Source: Mesobacillus persicus
GTDB taxonomy: Bacteria > Bacillota > Bacilli > Bacillales > Cytobacillaceae
Length of the DNA: 64,000 nt
Direction of reading: 5' to 3'
Assembly (NCBI RefSeq): GCF_900109925.1
Contig: NZ_FOBW01000001.1
Location: 310,001 to 374,000, forward strand
The position numbers and the translations under genes are program-made. Every line of letters begins with the position of its first letter. Within the stretch, counting starts at the first letter, position 1. Below the pieces are notes generated by a model. The model ran no database searches, had not been told where the DNA came from, and was given only the letters and a program-made list of their open reading frames with translations. Shown piece after piece: positions 1 to 53,479 of this stretch.

Positions 1-1244
1 ATATTAACTCCGCTGGTAGCAAGGGCTTTTGCAGCTCTTGCCATAGTCCCTACATTGCAACGCATTCCTTCACCAACGACCATAATTAGGCTTAGGTTGT
101 GCTGTATTTTCACTTCATCTGCCTGCAACTCATTTTTAATCCGCTGCAAGATATCTTGTTCAAACACAAAATTCATTTGTCCTTGGTTTAAAATAATCGA
201 GATATCATCAATACCTGAAGGCAAATGCTCGTAGGATAGCTCGTATTCTTCTAAAATCTGCAGGAGTTTCCGGCCGAAACCAATTTCTCGATTCATTAGA
301 TATTTGCTTACATAAATGCTGCAAAATCCTTTATCACTGGCAATTCCGATTACAGGACCATTTTCATTTTTACGCTTATTTACAATCCTTGTCCCTGGTG
401 CAGTTGGGTTATTGGTATTGCGAACATGTACAGGAATACCTGCATGAAAAGCCGGCATAAGGGCTTCATCGTGAAAAACTGAAAATCCAGCGTAGGAAAG
501 TTCACGCATTTCGCGATAAGTTAGCTCGCGAATTTCTTTCGGATTTTGCACGATACCAGGGTTTACTGAACAGACTGCATCCACATCAGTGAAATTTTCA
601 TACACATCTGCTTTTACGCCGTTGGCTAAAATCGAACCTGTTATATCTGAACCACTTCGGGAGAAGGTAACAATATCCCCGTCCTTCGTATAACCGAAAA
701 ATCCTGGAATAATTAAAATGCCTGGTTTGTTCCTAAGCTCGTATAAATTATCATACGTTTCAGGAAGGACCTGAGCATGACCAGGTTCATCACTTACAAG
801 TAGTCCAGCATCCTTCGGGTTAACATATTGAGCGTCTACTCCTCTGGATTGAAAATAGGCGGCAACCAGTTTGGCGTTATTATCCTCGCCACTTGCCTTA
901 ACAGATTCCATAAAATGCTCACGACTTTTTGAGCGATCTGCCAATAGCTTAAGCAAATCATCTGTAATAATTTCAACAATCTCCTCAGTAAGCCCTAGTT
1001 CGTTTGCAATTGCGGTGTATCTTTGGATGACGGCATCAAAAAACTCGCCACCCTCACCCGTTTCCATCACATGCTCTCCACAAGCAATTAAAAGGTCCGT
1101 CACTTTAATGTCGTCAGGATACCTTTTACCTGGTGCAGAAACAACGACTACTTTTCTTTCTTGATCTGAAGTTATGATATTAAATACTTTTTCTACCTGC
1201 TCACCGGAGGCTAAAGAAGAGCCCCCAAATTTAACGACTTTCAT
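1..1244 (-). CDS. Aspartate kinase (C-terminus cut by window edge)
   Basis: Phosphorylates L-aspartate, the first step to lysine, threonine, methionine and diaminopimelate, in the cytosol. The 414 visible residues start MKVVKFGGSSLAS, the amino-acid-kinase nucleotide loop, and continue through a catalytic region with FSRSGSDITGS and an ACT-domain part (SIYVSKYLMNREIGFG). The start is supported by an AGCGGAGGA ribosome site 7 nt upstream. The length and sequence style resemble B. subtilis YclM/ThrD (about 454 aa), so roughly 40 C-terminal residues should lie outside the window. It appears to be a single gene with its own promoter at 1275-1302. Isozyme class (feedback by threonine or lysine) cannot be decided here. 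Confidence 0.93.
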   Translation of the reverse strand, partial: MKVVKFGGSSLASGEQVEKVFNIITSDQERKVVVVSAPGKRYPDDIKVTDLLIACGEHVMETGEGGEFFDAVIQRYTAIANELGLTEEIVEIITDDLLKLLADRSKSREHFMESVKASGEDNNAKLVAAYFQSRGVDAQYVNPKDAGLLVSDEPGHAQVLPETYDNLYELRNKPGILIIPGFFGYTKDGDIVTFSRSGSDITGSILANGVKADVYENFTDVDAVCSVNPGIVQNPKEIRELTYREMRELSYAGFSVFHDEALMPAFHAGIPVHVRNTNNPTAPGTRIVNKRKNENGPVIGIASDKGFCSIYVSKYLMNREIGFGRKLLQILEEYELSYEHLPSGIDDISIILNQGQMNFVFEQDILQRIKNELQADEVKIQHNLSLIMVVGEGMRCNVGTMARAAKALATSGVN

Positions 1245-1274
1245 TTTTCATCCTCCGCTATAGTTTTGTTTTCC

Positions 1275-1302
1275 ATTATACCTTTAACTTTCAAAGATGC
1301 AA
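1275..1302 (-). promoter_or_regulatory. SigA-type promoter of the aspartate kinase gene
   Basis: On the minus strand TTGCAT is followed after 16 nt by a perfect TATAAT. The implied start of transcription near 1268 leaves a leader of only about 24 nt, so there is no room for a lysine riboswitch or T-box. Confidence 0.6.
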
Positions 1303-1394
1303 GAATTTTCCCTTTTGTTAGAAGAATTAAACTAAAATGAACATTACAAAGTTAAGTCAATATAAAGTACTGAACCGAGTACTAGGTATAAAAA

Positions 1395-2018
1395 CTATTC
1401 TATTGCGGTTACTTTGAGAAAATGCGTTAGAATTCTAGCAGTGAGCCCCCATATTACATGTCCATCATAGGAATAGAAATATTCATCCATATGTCTTGTT
1501 TGCCAATTATAGTTCTCGCCACCAACAATCAAGTCAAAAGGAAACCCATCTTCTGGCTGGACTTCGAAATGAATCTTATATCGGTCGGGCTCCGTTTCTT
1601 TTAGGTAAGAAAGAGGGACTGTGAAAACCTCGCCGACTTCGTCTGGATTAGGTTGAAGTTTATCGATGTCTTCAATGATTCCAACAAATGGATAGATAAT
1701 TGTGCCGAATGCGGAAACCATGTAATCTAGTGGAATAACATCGGAAATGTCGGTTTCATGGATTCCAAGTTCTTCGGTTGTTTCCCTGATAGCACATTGT
1801 CTCTCATCAAAGTCATTTTTATCTAACTTCCCTCCAGGAAAACACACTTCGTTTGGTTGTCTGCGCATGTGACTCGCCCTTACTTCAAATAAAACATGCG
1901 TTTCTCCATCTTTTTCTACAAGGGGCAAAAGGACAGAAACTTTAAAAAAATCCTCTTCCCCGAGGATACCCGGCTTTCTGCCTTTTAGTTTGTTTAGGAT
2001 TTGTTTAGATTCCATCAT
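1395..2018 (-). CDS. Nudix hydrolase, CoA-pyrophosphatase-like
   Basis: Predicted to cleave the pyrophosphate bond of CoA or a related nucleotide. A Nudix box lies at residues 62-86 (FPGGK...RETTEELGI), preceded by the MRRQPNEVCFPGG signature typical of the NudL/UPF0035 subgroup rather than of general Nudix enzymes. The glutamate usually found mid-box is not in its normal register, but the catalytic REXXEE core is intact. The start is set at the ATGATG preceded by GGAGAGGTGAA; the open frame extends 15 codons upstream without a ribosome site. A TATAAT-like element sits about 30 nt upstream. Product 207 aa, monocistronic, divergent from the HAD gene. Confidence 0.8.
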   Translation of the reverse strand: MMESKQILNKLKGRKPGILGEEDFFKVSVLLPLVEKDGETHVLFEVRASHMRRQPNEVCFPGGKLDKNDFDERQCAIRETTEELGIHETDISDVIPLDYMVSAFGTIIYPFVGIIEDIDKLQPNPDEVGEVFTVPLSYLKETEPDRYKIHFEVQPEDGFPFDLIVGGENYNWQTRHMDEYFYSYDGHVIWGLTARILTHFLKVTAIE

Positions 2019-2211
2019 TTTCACCTCTCCTATACGGTCATTTTTTATTATACAACTAAACATGGAGAAACATGATGCAAATGCTTTTTTCGGTTACGTC
2101 AGAATCAGGGCATCTTTTGTGAAGAAGGTATTTTTGACTGAAGATTTGAGCCAAACATCTAAAAACGGTAAAATGGGAAAAAGAATCTATGTTCATGTTA
2201 GGAGAGTAATA

Positions 2212-3003
2212 ATGACAGCCTACAAAATATTATTTCTCGATATTGATGGGACCCTTCTTCGTCCTGACCACACGATGGAACAGTCCACGAAAAAAGCGAT
2301 TTCTCAAGTCCAGAAGCAAGGGATTGAAACTGTGCTAGCGACCGGTAGGCCGATTCATGAAATTACCGAGCTTGGTACTGAGCTCAAGATTGAATCTTTT
2401 ATTGGCTACAATGGTGCTTTAGCCCTTTACAAAGGGGAGAAAGTTTTCGCCGAGCCGATGGATGTAAAAAGTGTCGAATATTTCCTTGAAGTCGCCGCTA
2501 TCCACAAGCATGATATCGTTTTATATTCGAGTACGACAAATTTCTTTACCTCATTGGAAAGCCCTAAGGTTAAAGCATTCATTGAGACGTTTGATCTGCG
2601 GAAAAACGAAAATTATACAGACGACAACGTGGGAGATATTCTTGGGATGACGATTATTACTGATAGTGAAACCGGTAATGATCGCTATTCCCTTGAAGAG
2701 GGCATCCACTTTTCACAAGTACATGTGAACGGCATGCGACACTGTTTCGACGTCATTCGCGACAAAGTCAACAAAGGGGTTGGCATCCAGGTTTTGCTTG
2801 ATCGCCTAGGTATCCCAAAAAGCAGCGCGATTGCCTTTGGGGATGGGATGAATGATAAGGAGATGCTAAGCACCGTTGGCGAAGGATTTGCGATGGGAAA
2901 TGCGCATGAAAATCTCTTTCAATATGCAAAGCATAAAACAACATCGGTAACAGATTCCGGAGTGTATAATGGATTAAAATCGCTTGGGTTAATAGAGGAG
3001 TAA
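2212..3003 (+). CDS. HAD-superfamily Cof-type phosphatase
   Basis: A cytosolic phosphatase for sugar phosphates or flavin-type substrates. HAD motif I is LFLDIDGTLL (Asp10 and Asp12), and motif IV is FGDGMNDKEML near residue 207, with a C2-type cap between, as in the Cof/YwpJ group. The frame is open from 1990, but GGAGAG at 2201-2206 places the start at 2212 (263 aa); the upstream residues overlap the Nudix gene and look random. It is followed at once by a strong terminator. The substrate cannot be inferred. Confidence 0.85.
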   Translation: MTAYKILFLDIDGTLLRPDHTMEQSTKKAISQVQKQGIETVLATGRPIHEITELGTELKIESFIGYNGALALYKGEKVFAEPMDVKSVEYFLEVAAIHKHDIVLYSSTTNFFTSLESPKVKAFIETFDLRKNENYTDDNVGDILGMTIITDSETGNDRYSLEEGIHFSQVHVNGMRHCFDVIRDKVNKGVGIQVLLDRLGIPKSSAIAFGDGMNDKEMLSTVGEGFAMGNAHENLFQYAKHKTTSVTDSGVYNGLKSLGLIEE

Positions 3004-3007
3004 AATA

Positions 3008-3040
3008 AAGGGACCTATTATTTTTTTATAGGTCCCTTCT
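3008..3040. terminator. Bidirectional intrinsic terminator
   Basis: A nine-pair stem (GGGACCTAT with ATAGGTCCC) and an A/T-rich loop between two convergent genes. Confidence 0.8.
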
Positions 3041-3056
3041 CTTATTTGAAAATCAT

Positions 3057-4208
3057 CTACATCTTTCTCAGAAGCGACTTATCAAGCTCTCGAACCGATG
3101 TCCTTCCAGACAGCGCTAGGGTTAAATCTAAGTCCGCAATCAAATTACGCAGCACTTGCTTCACTCCAGCATCCCCAGCGAGAGCAAGTCCGTAAATATA
3201 AGGTCTTCCAACAAGCACAGCTTTGGCACCTAGCGCAACCGCCTTTATGATATCAGCTCCACGTCGGATTCCACTATCCATCAGCACCGGAATCTCGCCA
3301 TTTACTACTTCACAAATTTCTGGTAGTGCCTCAATCGCCGAAATCGCTCCATCCACTTGGCGACCACCATGATTGCTCACAATGATTCCGTCCATACCAT
3401 ATTCAATTGCAAGCTTTGCGTCTTCAGGATGTAGGATACCTTTTAATAAAATTGGTAGAGATGTCTGCATTCGAATAAATTGTAGGTCCTCCCATGTCAA
3501 GCCAGGATTTCCAAACACCTGAGACCATTGCGTCACCGCTCCAATGAGATCTTCCTGTGGCGGTTTGGCTAATCGCGAACAAAATACGGGGTCTTCAAGG
3601 TAGTTGCCAATTCCTTGTCCCATTAAAAACGGTAAATAGGCATTTTCAATGTCTTTTTCACGCCATCCCATCATTGGTGTATCAAGGGTCACGACAATCG
3701 CCCTGTACCCAGCATTCTCTGCCCTTTTCACCATTGAGGCTGCAATTTCTCGGTCCGAGCTCCAATAAAGCTGAAACCACTTTAGTCCATCTTCCCCAGC
3801 AGCTGCGACCTTTTCAAGGCTATGGGTCGAGGCTGTACTTGAAATGAATGGTACTCCGACAGAAGCGGCAGCACGAGCGGAGGCAATTTCTCCTTCGGGA
3901 TGCACAATTGACTGCACACCAACGGGTGCACAAAGCACGGGGTATGGGAGTGTTTGACCGAATAATTCCACACTTAAATCCCTGTTTGTCGTATCACGAA
4001 GCATACGCGGAACGATTTTCCACTGGTTAAAAGCTTCTTGATTGGACTTAGCCGTCACTTCCGCTCCAGCTGAAGCCGCAACATAATAATAAGGAGAAGC
4101 TTCGAGCTTTTCCTTCGCAGCTGCTTCAAGCTCTTCATATGAAACCGGAACGACCGCTTGCTCCTGCTCCTTGTATACCTTTAACTGTACGTGATTGCCA
4201 TAACTCAT
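3057..4208 (-). CDS. FMN-dependent alpha-hydroxy-acid oxidase (lactate 2-monooxygenase type)
   Basis: Oxidises a 2-hydroxy acid, probably L-lactate, using FMN. The 383-residue chain has the complete (beta/alpha)8 family fold: PVGVQSIVHPEGE, the FMN-phosphate region, Lys256 in LLKGI, and catalytic His280 within IVSNHGGRQVDG. An insertion around residues 190-235 and a Trp-rich FQLYWSSD segment resemble lactate 2-monooxygenases more than lactate dehydrogenase LldD. The start follows AGGAGG. About 25 nt upstream of the start is a cre-like box, suggesting carbon-catabolite repression. Substrate and product (pyruvate plus peroxide, or acetate plus CO2) are inferred from family only. Confidence 0.82.
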   Translation of the reverse strand: MSYGNHVQLKVYKEQEQAVVPVSYEELEAAAKEKLEASPYYYVAASAGAEVTAKSNQEAFNQWKIVPRMLRDTTNRDLSVELFGQTLPYPVLCAPVGVQSIVHPEGEIASARAAASVGVPFISSTASTHSLEKVAAAGEDGLKWFQLYWSSDREIAASMVKRAENAGYRAIVVTLDTPMMGWREKDIENAYLPFLMGQGIGNYLEDPVFCSRLAKPPQEDLIGAVTQWSQVFGNPGLTWEDLQFIRMQTSLPILLKGILHPEDAKLAIEYGMDGIIVSNHGGRQVDGAISAIEALPEICEVVNGEIPVLMDSGIRRGADIIKAVALGAKAVLVGRPYIYGLALAGDAGVKQVLRNLIADLDLTLALSGRTSVRELDKSLLRKM

Positions 4209-50613: not shown

Positions 50614-50642
50614 AAAAAAACTACCCATACTTAAGTGGGTAG
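50614..50642 (-). terminator. Terminator of the binding-protein gene
   Basis: CTACCCA pairs with TGGGTAG; the minus strand ends in seven T. Confidence 0.75.
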
Positions 50643-50732
50643 TAAACGATTTGCTCATTGGTTTGTGCTGAATCTTTGATTTGCTGTGAGTTGCTTTCGA
50701 CATGTAATCTTAACTTTAATTTCATTGATTAG

Positions 50733-52403
50733 TTATTTTGGCTTACCCGGGTAATAAATTTCTCCTTTTTCGTTCCACTTGTAACCTGCGTCCTTCAGTG
50801 TATTCACCGCCGCTTCGAGATTATACTCATAACCCTCGAGATCGGAACTATGCCACGATTCATTTGCCGGTGCGATTAATCCATTCGCTACTTGAGCGTG
50901 CTCTTTGAGGATTTCTCCAATGATCTTTTCTCTTGGTATCGTGAGAGTTAACGCTTGGCGAAAAAAGTGATCGTCGAATGGTTTTTCTCTTATATTAAAA
51001 TGAACAGCGTCAAGATCTACTGAAGGAACAGAAATGACTTCCATTTCGTTCGATTCATTGAGTTTTTCTACTTCAATCGGGGTAACCTCAGCACCACTTA
51101 TTTCCACGTTCCCATTTATTACATCAGTTATGAGCTTTTCTTCGTTTTCGTAAGGGATACGGAGGATTCCATTTATTTTCGATTGTGAAAAGTAATTCTT
51201 ATTCGTATCAAGCTTTAATTCTTGACCTGGATCCCAATAATCGAAAATGAACGGACCGCTCCCAATCATCTTTTCGTTGCTATCTTCCAACACTCCATTG
51301 CCCCCTTTTTCTTCGAAGATAGGTTGCCAAATATGGTGGGGCAAAATATAGATTTGGGAGAGCGTTTCACTTAAAAATGGAGCAAAGTGTTGTTTCAGAG
51401 TAAAACGAACCGACAGTTCATCAACAATTTCGACTTTTTCAATATGTTCAACTAGAGAATCAAAAGCCGGTATCTTGCTTTCTTTTACTAAATCAAAAGA
51501 AAATTTAATATCCGTAGCAGTGACTTTTTCACCGTCATGAAAGGTCAAGTCCTCCCTAAGCTTAATCAGATATTTTTTTCCGTCTTCGTTTACATCTTCA
51601 ATCGAGGTAGCCGCTGAGTTTTTCACTTCACCTGTTTCGCTTATCCTTACTAAATGGTCATAAACCAACCGGAAAACCTGAGAATCAAGCTTTCTTGAAG
51701 AAGCTAAAGGGTTTAATGTTTCAAGGTCACTTGGGTATCCCCAACGAACATACTTCTGAATCCCTTTTGGCTCTAACTCCATAAAGGTCCAAAAACTATT
51801 TAAACCTTCCCCGGTCGTATATGTAAAATTAGTAAACTTCTCATTTTTAATAGGAAGGAGGTGGTTGCGATGAACAATTGGGGCAATTGGAACATTTTCA
51901 AGCAATTGTTCCTCTGCTTTCTTTATAATCTCTTTTCTATCTCCCAAATTCTTAGTCTTTCTTTGCTCATCTACCATGGCGTTGTACTCGGCATGATCAT
52001 ATCCGGAAAGATTGTCCCCATGATTTGCTCCAAGTCTATTGATAAAAGAATCCGGGTCATACCCATTGAATGAATGATTCCAGGTTAGAATTAGAGAATC
52101 AAACTCCTTCTTTTGAGCGTGAATATCAGAAAAGCTACTCGAATTCAGGGGTTCAACTTTCACATCTAATCCGAGTTTCTTCCACTCTTCAGCCATCATG
52201 AACCCGTATTCATACTGGATTGGATCGTCTTCTTTTGTCGGAACATTTAGGACAATTTCTCTAACCTTTTGATTTTGAGGCAAATCTTTCGTTACAGGAA
52301 GGATGACTTCAGTAGCTGACCCGTTTTCATTGTTGGCAGATATAGAGCATGCTGAGAGAAAAAGTATTGTAGATATTAACAAAAGCAAAATGGATTTATT
52401 CAA
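50733..52403 (-). CDS. Peptide-binding lipoprotein, family 5, with swapped lobes
   Basis: A 556-residue extracellular oligopeptide- or nickel-binding-type lipoprotein. The signal peptide ends in LSAC (Cys19). The order of the mature domain is unusual. Residues 45-212 are the part normally found at the C-terminus (EEWKKLGLDVKVEPL, LILTWNHSFNGYDPDSF, SGYDHAEYNAMVDEQRK, VPIAPIVHRN). Residues 216-556 are the part normally N-terminal (VRWGYPSDLETLNPL, FRLVYDHLVRI, KLREDLTFHDGEKVTATDIKFSFD) and end AVNTLKDAGYKWNEKGEIYYPGKPK, exactly where the usual C-lobe would begin. This is a circular permutation. The start is TTG at 52403 (AAAGGGG eight bases upstream). No permease or ATPase genes accompany it. 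Confidence 0.85.
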   Translation of the reverse strand: MNKSILLLLISTILFLSACSISANNENGSATEVILPVTKDLPQNQKVREIVLNVPTKEDDPIQYEYGFMMAEEWKKLGLDVKVEPLNSSSFSDIHAQKKEFDSLILTWNHSFNGYDPDSFINRLGANHGDNLSGYDHAEYNAMVDEQRKTKNLGDRKEIIKKAEEQLLENVPIAPIVHRNHLLPIKNEKFTNFTYTTGEGLNSFWTFMELEPKGIQKYVRWGYPSDLETLNPLASSRKLDSQVFRLVYDHLVRISETGEVKNSAATSIEDVNEDGKKYLIKLREDLTFHDGEKVTATDIKFSFDLVKESKIPAFDSLVEHIEKVEIVDELSVRFTLKQHFAPFLSETLSQIYILPHHIWQPIFEEKGGNGVLEDSNEKMIGSGPFIFDYWDPGQELKLDTNKNYFSQSKINGILRIPYENEEKLITDVINGNVEISGAEVTPIEVEKLNESNEMEVISVPSVDLDAVHFNIREKPFDDHFFRQALTLTIPREKIIGEILKEHAQVANGLIAPANESWHSSDLEGYEYNLEAAVNTLKDAGYKWNEKGEIYYPGKPK

Positions 52404-52654
52404 CCGATATACCCCTTTCCTTCGTACTATAGTTAGATCCACGCGCATTTTGTCTAAACAATTCTGAACAATCTCTTTATAAATAGTTTATCATATAGTA
52501 AGGAATCTCTATAACTATAAATTTACAGTGATTGTCAATTTTGTTAAATATTAGTTTTTAAATATAGGATTAGATATGTAATTGTCATTTTTAATTAAAT
52601 TTTCTTTAAGGCTCTATTAGTTAATGAATACTTCATCTTAGGAGGTAATATGAT

Positions 52655-53479
52655 TTGAAGGTCTTTGCATTAGTTGGCAAAAGTGGAACTGGCAAAAGTA
52701 CAAGCATTCTGCAATATTGCTATGAAAATCGAATTCCAGCTTTTATTGATGATGGATTATTGATTGTAAACGGGAAAAGGTCTGCTGGAACCTCGGCAAA
52801 GTATGAGAATAATTACATTCGCGCTATCAAGCGAGCGACTTTTCATTTTGATGATCACCGTTTGGAAGTAATCAACGAGATTCAGCGTCTGCCGATTAAA
52901 CACCTCCTCATCGTTGGGACTTCTATTAAAATGGTCGATCAAATAGCGAGCAGGCTAGATCTAGGGAACGTTGATAAATACATTGACGTAACAGAAGTTC
53001 GTTCGAGTCAAGAAATTAAAATGGCCCTTTTTGTCCGAAAAACGCAAGAACGGCATGTCATACCGATTCCCTACATACAGATTGAAGCAAACCGTTTTAA
53101 AAAGCTGATGAAAAAGGGAAAAAAAATCTTCTCGAAACACCAAACCTATATCGGTGAAAATACGATTATTCAGCCTAACTTTACGAAGGGGACCATCTCT
53201 ATTGATGAAAATGTGATGAAAGACATTATTTCCTATACTTGTAGAGAGATAGCTAGAGTTGGGAAGGCGAAAAATATTCGCTATTATTTTGACCCTTCGC
53301 CTCGATTATCACTGCAAGTGGATTTCATCTGTTCAATGAATCAAAACATTGTAAACCTGATAGAGGAAGTCCAAGCAAAAATAGCTGAAACGATACTCTC
53401 GATACTAGAAATTGAGTTAGTTTCAATCGATGTTACTATCACAAATCTAAAGTTTGAGAAGATCGAGAGTTTCACTTAA
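52655..53479 (+). CDS. P-loop ATP-binding protein with C-terminal Asp23-like domain
   Basis: A 274-residue protein. Walker A is GKSGTGKS (residues 8-15), followed by a conserved IDDGLLI segment and SAKYENNYIRAIKRA. The first 170 residues resemble a P-loop family of unknown function seen in Bacilli and Clostridia. Residues about 172-268 (GTISIDENVMKDIISYTCREI, LQVDFICSMNQNIVNLIEEVQAKIAETI, SIDVTITNLKF) match the Asp23/Gls24/YloU pattern. The start is TTG after AGGAGG; an ATG five bases earlier runs at once into a stop. Monocistronic. Possible role: ATP-dependent function at the cell envelope (inference). Confidence 0.72.
   Translation: MKVFALVGKSGTGKSTSILQYCYENRIPAFIDDGLLIVNGKRSAGTSAKYENNYIRAIKRATFHFDDHRLEVINEIQRLPIKHLLIVGTSIKMVDQIASRLDLGNVDKYIDVTEVRSSQEIKMALFVRKTQERHVIPIPYIQIEANRFKKLMKKGKKIFSKHQTYIGENTIIQPNFTKGTISIDENVMKDIISYTCREIARVGKAKNIRYYFDPSPRLSLQVDFICSMNQNIVNLIEEVQAKIAETILSILEIELVSIDVTITNLKFEKIESFT

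Follow-up and report, generated by a model that had tools for sequence, protein, structure and literature searches.

Within the window, the 64,000-nucleotide stretch of Mesobacillus persicus DNA that was analysed, one gene encodes a family-5 solute-binding lipoprotein in which the segment that normally ends the chain stands first. This raises the question of whether the gene is broken or wrongly joined, or encodes a circularly permuted binding protein, and which transporter such a protein would serve. The explanation that we hold, as a whole, to be very probable is that the protein is an intact, presumably working, permuted family-5 lipoprotein, that most of its relatives are encoded together with an importer lineage of their own, and that it is an orphan in the genus of the window.

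Segment order in the predicted protein

The features of the gene are collected in Table 1. The reading frame was unbroken over 556 residues from the TTG at 52403; an alternative ATG at 52448 would give 571 residues. A lipobox (LSAC, residues 16-19) was found by translation and a simple pattern, and the protein thus carries the signal peptide and lipobox of an ABC-importer binding lipoprotein. The lipobox and single uninterrupted frame cited by the initial annotation in favour of a working gene were present, as was a terminator-like hairpin at the place of the terminator. The C-terminus that it gave, AVNTLKDAGYKW, was wrong; translation extends the protein 13 residues beyond it (NEKGEIYYPGKPK).

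Table 1. Features of the permuted gene and its product (window coordinates)
Feature	Position	Strand	Details	Basis
Permuted family-5 solute-binding lipoprotein	50733..52403	(-)	556 aa, TTG start	Profile and HMM matches
Signal peptide and lipobox LSAC	52347..52403	(-)	Residues 1-19	Translation, simple pattern
Ribosome-binding-site-like GGAAAGGGG	52412..52420	(-)	5' of the TTG	Sequence reading
Segment Y, canonical C-terminal part	51786..52205	(-)	Residues 67-206, canonical HMM 381-521	Profile and HMM
Join of old C-terminus and old N-terminus	51756..51785	(-)	Residues 207-216	HMM match limits
Segment X, canonical N-terminal part	50778..51755	(-)	Residues 217-542, canonical HMM 45-361	Profile and HMM
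New C-terminal tail	50736..50777	(-)	Residues 543-556, from the clade-A cut loop	HMM, alignment
Intrinsic-terminator-like hairpin with T run	50620..50643	(-)	3' of the stop codon	Sequence

The Pfam profile SBP_bac_5 (PF00496) matched the whole 556-residue chain at 223.7 bits (cut-off 32.4), in two stretches of swapped order instead of the collinear order of the family: residues 260-549 corresponded to profile positions 2-286 and residues 50-127 to positions 288-363. The protein is therefore described as a permuted variant and not as an ordinary member. Scanned alone, the N-terminal 211-residue piece scored 28.6 bits (E 1e-6), below the PF00496 cut-off by itself. NCBIfam matches had the same swap. 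In sequence comparison with the PDB, 5u4o, Lmo0135, NikZ and AppA each aligned in two blocks in the four alignments shown, the N-terminal part of the chains with window protein residues 222-554 and the C-terminal part with residues 53-198. An HMM was built from 33 canonical family-5 proteins (the canonical HMM). Its two matches to the window protein left positions 45-521 unmatched only at 362-380, around the cut, and hence nearly the whole domain is present, rotated.

All four kinds of match bear out the proposal that this gene encodes an intact family-5 lipoprotein in circularly permuted form. Both segments match canonical family-5 (cluster C) proteins (AppA, 1xoc; NikZ, 4oet; Lmo0135, 5isu; DppA, 1dpp) over nearly the full domain; these are also secreted proteins or lipoproteins, and most of the permuted relatives whose contexts were read are likewise clustered with permease and ATPase genes (B, C, D and F). 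The difference lies in the segments, which are swapped in the window protein. Tandem duplication, followed by loss of the outer halves, may have produced the rearrangement; no intermediate was encountered among the loci read.

Homologues in the same order and the number of origins

A search for full-length homologues with the same order, as suggested in the initial annotation, succeeded in the family, the order, the phylum and plasmid records. One such homologue was found in Oceanobacillus halotolerans (locus L001, 53%). At least 5 of the 193 family genomes searched and at least 5 of the 397 order genomes, with the window genome counted in both, had homologues in the same order; these are lower bounds, as up to seven candidates were scored per genome for the family and up to three for the order and phylum. 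Thirty-five plasmid records, from alphaproteobacteria and haloarchaea and including near-duplicates, spanned 80% or more of the query at E 1e-30.

The first collection comprised 25 permuted proteins (the window protein included; 15 from plasmid records). With the canonical HMM, the order was swapped in all 25, L032, L067, L069 and L070 reading as permuted, and the 33 canonical proteins each gave one collinear stretch, as did nine further canonical proteins from outside the HMM set. L042, with one partial match from which the order is unreadable, and L040, which is the window again, were left out of the comparison. In a profile search of the phylum, at least 158 of 398 genomes passed E 1e-60, with many matches to segment X alone, as in canonical proteins. 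The order was checked for 30 loci from this search plus two viral-contig loci; L092 had no open frame of 380 residues with a match, and the 31 proteins classified comprised 21 permuted (one being the window again) and 10 canonical (L097 being L013 again). Second clade-A-like places in genomes G578, G592 and G625 stand outside these counts. No relative was found in viral contigs with a four-row profile, and a broad profile gave two matches there, both canonical. None of 39 matches in phage records covered 80% of the query, all being partial. In all, 45 permuted proteins were found, the window protein included, some of them haloarchaeal and some alphaproteobacterial, with the cut in one loop.

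For the first 25 permuted and 33 canonical proteins, one tree was made from segment X, with 334 columns, and another from segment Y, with 159. The permuted proteins lay on one side of a branch in both (SH-aLRT 95 for X and 90 for Y). The nearest canonical row was L008 for X, and L008 together with the long-branched L037 for Y; since the nearest canonical relative is shared, both pieces most likely derive from one ancestral gene. The possibility that the swap is an artefact, in which pieces of two genes were fused or an assembly or sequencing error was made, is scarcely credible. An order rearranged in a single genome could arise in this way, and nothing in this analysis supported it; the order is common to 44 further proteins, including those from plasmid records, and the X and Y trees, to the extent of their resolution, point to the same nearest canonical relative. 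The two-gene-fusion and artefact readings were rejected on these grounds. Of the outcomes named beforehand as fatal to the permutation, collinearity over the whole chain was not found, and a sequencing error or the joining of different genes is made very unlikely by the recurrence of the order in relatives that were sequenced independently.

Three groups of permuted proteins were separated. Clade A contains 31 proteins (the first 25 and L085-L090), cut after an AGYxW-type motif near the new C-terminus. Group B contains 13 (L091, L093-L095, L100-L102, L104-L106, L108, L109 and L111), and group C is L099 alone, which falls among canonical proteins in the tree and begins 20 bases from the edge of a contig. 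Groups B and C share with clade A the swapped order and the cut region (canonical HMM about 357-370), but have Y and X nearly touching, with 0-5 residues between the HMM matches, and lie apart from clade A in the trees. The haloarchaeal clade-A proteins L079 (5719-7629), L080 (5527-7455) and L081 (5707-7656) are 636-649 residues long and extended at both ends; the Y match of L081 is weak and starts only at canonical HMM position 427. The C-terminal tail of L001 resembles its own N-terminal linker by eye, over a length too short to count.

Topologies were compared for X, Y and X+Y (465 columns) on 76 rows, after removal of 12 of 88 rows (three very long canonical proteins, the long L037, and eight near-copies or duplicates). 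On X+Y, a single clade of all permuted proteins was rejected (p-AU 9.9e-6), as were A+B (0.0059) and A+C (6e-8); B+C was not rejected (0.275). On X alone, the all-permuted clade was rejected (p-AU 0.0007) and A+B weakly so (0.044). On the shorter Y segment alone, neither the all-permuted clade (p-AU 0.067) nor A+B (0.253) was rejected. The support of clade A was weak (11, X+Y tree) once its sister canonical proteins were added, and in the 76-row Y tree the three haloarchaeal clade-A rows fell apart and L008 fell inside. On these trees, two or more separate permutations at this one loop are likely, though not proven.

Cut site, fold and membrane anchor

In AppA (1xoc), the equivalent of the cut lies between chain residues 346 and 359. 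AlphaFold models reached a pLDDT of 39.4 with 4 rows and 58.2 with 14 rows, and are too weak to show the packing of Y against X. A Foldseek search with the weak model gave TM scores of 0.33-0.38 (normalised by query) among the 50 matches listed, mainly over lobe I; lobe I of the model with pLDDT 58.2 matched at Z 18-20 among the 50 matches listed, with lobe II hardly covered. The matched lobe ended near AppA residue 262, which places the cut in the other lobe. The initial annotation had spoken of permuted lobes: the segment order is indeed swapped, but the cut falls in a loop inside lobe II and not between the lobes.

In canonical proteins such as OppA and DppA, the N- and C-termini both lie in lobe I, so the old ends can be fused. 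In the proposed mechanism, a short linker would have joined the old C- and N-termini, and the lobe-II loop would have opened to give the new ends. The permuted chain would be expected to form the usual two-lobed clamp; with the cut in lobe II and the old ends in lobe I, the lipid tether would move from lobe I to lobe II. Such a move cannot explain the permutation in general, because some members have no lipobox by the simple pattern. These are 10 of the 31 clade-A proteins, including all six alphaproteobacterial ones (among the ten, L001 has a lipobox-like TTGC), and 11 of the 13 group B proteins.

Three canonical proteins, L008 (1423-3225), L098 and L107, have a strongly hydrophobic, lysine-followed C-terminal segment, and are the only ones to do so among 43 canonical rows (in which L097 repeats L013). 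They have no lipobox by the pattern, as if anchored at the C-terminus, and adjoin clade A in the trees. In L112, a protein of the same group as L098 and L107, a lipobox takes the place of the hydrophobic C-terminus. As a lead rather than a result, the sister group of clade A may have a history of changing its mode of anchoring.

Importer genes and the orphan copy

Gene contexts were read for 29 of the 31 clade-A proteins (L086 and L089 being outside), with some genes in GC-rich loci masked by longer frames on the opposite strand. In 25 of the 29, the cluster also contained dipeptide-type permease genes. The usual gene order was binding protein-B-C-D-F, sometimes with a fused double ATPase; exceptions had the binding protein last (L138) or an ATPase gene first (L077). 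Permease genes were absent from four of the 29 contexts: the window, L032 and L033 from the same genus, and G592 (L141; 10 kb read). Some clade-A neighbours were annotated as M20, M28 and M81 peptidases, D-aminoacylase, dipeptide epimerase, creatininase and hydantoinase/oxoprolinase, which suggests peptide-like ligands.

Several clusters had unusual features. In the haloarchaeal loci L079, L080 and L081, two permease genes are followed by one long ATP-binding gene that is apparently a fusion of D and F. In Nitratireductor (L061, 9616-13589), the second permease (about 557 residues) and the ATP-binding protein (about 767 residues) are both unusually long, the latter apparently being a fused double ATPase. 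In O. halotolerans L001, a canonical family-5 gene cluster (24-4013) lies upstream of the permuted cluster, with about 4 kb between its end and the latter.

In a tree of 47 permeases, from which the L140 permease was excluded by a length filter, the 24 clade-A rows formed one clade (SH-aLRT 96), and nearest to them was a long-branched permease encoded beside L008 (support 83). Permeases from one cluster each of groups B and C fell among canonical permeases, an independent sign of separate origins. In most relatives, the binding protein would presumably feed a dipeptide/nickel-type ABC importer (B, C, D, F) of its own lineage, with peptides or modified peptides as its presumed ligands. The boldest reading of these data is that two or three independent permutations at one lobe-II loop produced a bacterial and archaeal permuted class of cluster C, that this shifted the free ends (in lipoproteins, the tether) out of lobe I into lobe II, and that clade A has its own permease lineage, with selection on the loop and tether shift as its most daring part; we would give it an even chance.

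The window's contig had no match to a clade-A, family-5-type permease, and none was recognised among the window ORFs. The initial annotation had noted that no permease was present; this holds for the window genome's contig and is untypical of the family, in which cognate permease and ATPase genes are usually nearby. A search of the three genomes G000, G001 and G003 with a clade-A permease gave eight matches, only 31-35% identical, and the three G000 permeases fell among canonical ones in the permease tree; the clade-A importer was found neither next to the orphan nor anywhere else in these three genomes. The binding protein was present in at least three of the seven genomes of the genus searched, orphan in all three, with its place near nirB kept. 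A divergent P-loop ATPase gene (window 52655-53479) adjoins the binding-protein gene and is 69% identical and likewise adjacent in G001; no counterpart was recognised within the 19 kb examined around the G003 copy.

The missing permease might mean that the window copy is a relic, decaying after loss of its importer and with no transport or sensing left. The distant permease matches and the canonical placement of the three G000 permeases would fit this, as would the rate of change: dN between the three orphans was 0.38-0.45, against 0.04-0.22 for five syntenic neighbouring genes (and 0.17-0.21 for three operon-encoded relatives), and the window copy is without five residues that are held by its five nearest relatives in the alignment. 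Decay is nevertheless improbable, given that frame and lipobox are intact in three divergent species, that the place near nirB is conserved, and that pN (0.30-0.34) was well below pS (0.68-0.74), which indicates purifying selection on the orphans, though with fast evolution. With synonymous sites near saturation, these rate estimates are rough.

An extracellular ligand sensor, or a scavenger that delivers nothing to a permease, would also be an orphan in all three members of the genus that have the gene. In G003, a putative PAS-GGDEF-EAL signalling gene (by eye; L032, 10719-12575) is the next downstream on the same strand, after a 400-base gap, which slightly favours a sensor there. No such gene adjoins the binding-protein gene in the window or in G001, and we regard this function as unlikely for the orphan. 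Service to another family-5 importer, to which this fast-evolving protein would pass its ligand, is the likeliest role, at roughly one chance in two.

The closest parallel is TpMglB-2 (Tp0684) of Treponema pallidum, a circularly permuted type I binding protein for which the class 'Type Ic/Cluster Bc' was proposed (PMC4990184). Like the window protein, it is a naturally permuted binding lipoprotein of an ABC transporter and has homologues in other bacteria; it differs in binding sugars, in belonging to type I/cluster B and in having its cut in the N lobe (PMC4990184). The class described here belongs to family 5, is cut in lobe II, occurs in archaea too and probably has more than one origin. 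No type I/cluster B sugar-binding domain was listed for the window protein, PF00496 being the sole listing for the whole chain. In a search of open-access literature, with most subscription papers beyond its scope, none of the papers listed concerned permuted family-5 proteins, judging from title and opening of the abstract; within the literature searched, TpMglB-2 was the one described natural permutation of a whole transporter binding protein. The swap goes unflagged by annotation, as all 13 annotated plasmid members read carry the plain name 'ABC transporter substrate-binding protein'.

A family-5 class that is widespread, is cut at a fixed place and has an importer lineage of its own would make it possible to test directly whether the choice of tethered lobe matters, and why one loop is reused. 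That the rearrangement recurs in bacteria and archaea, usually beside transporter genes, suggests a design that works and not a gene that is broken.
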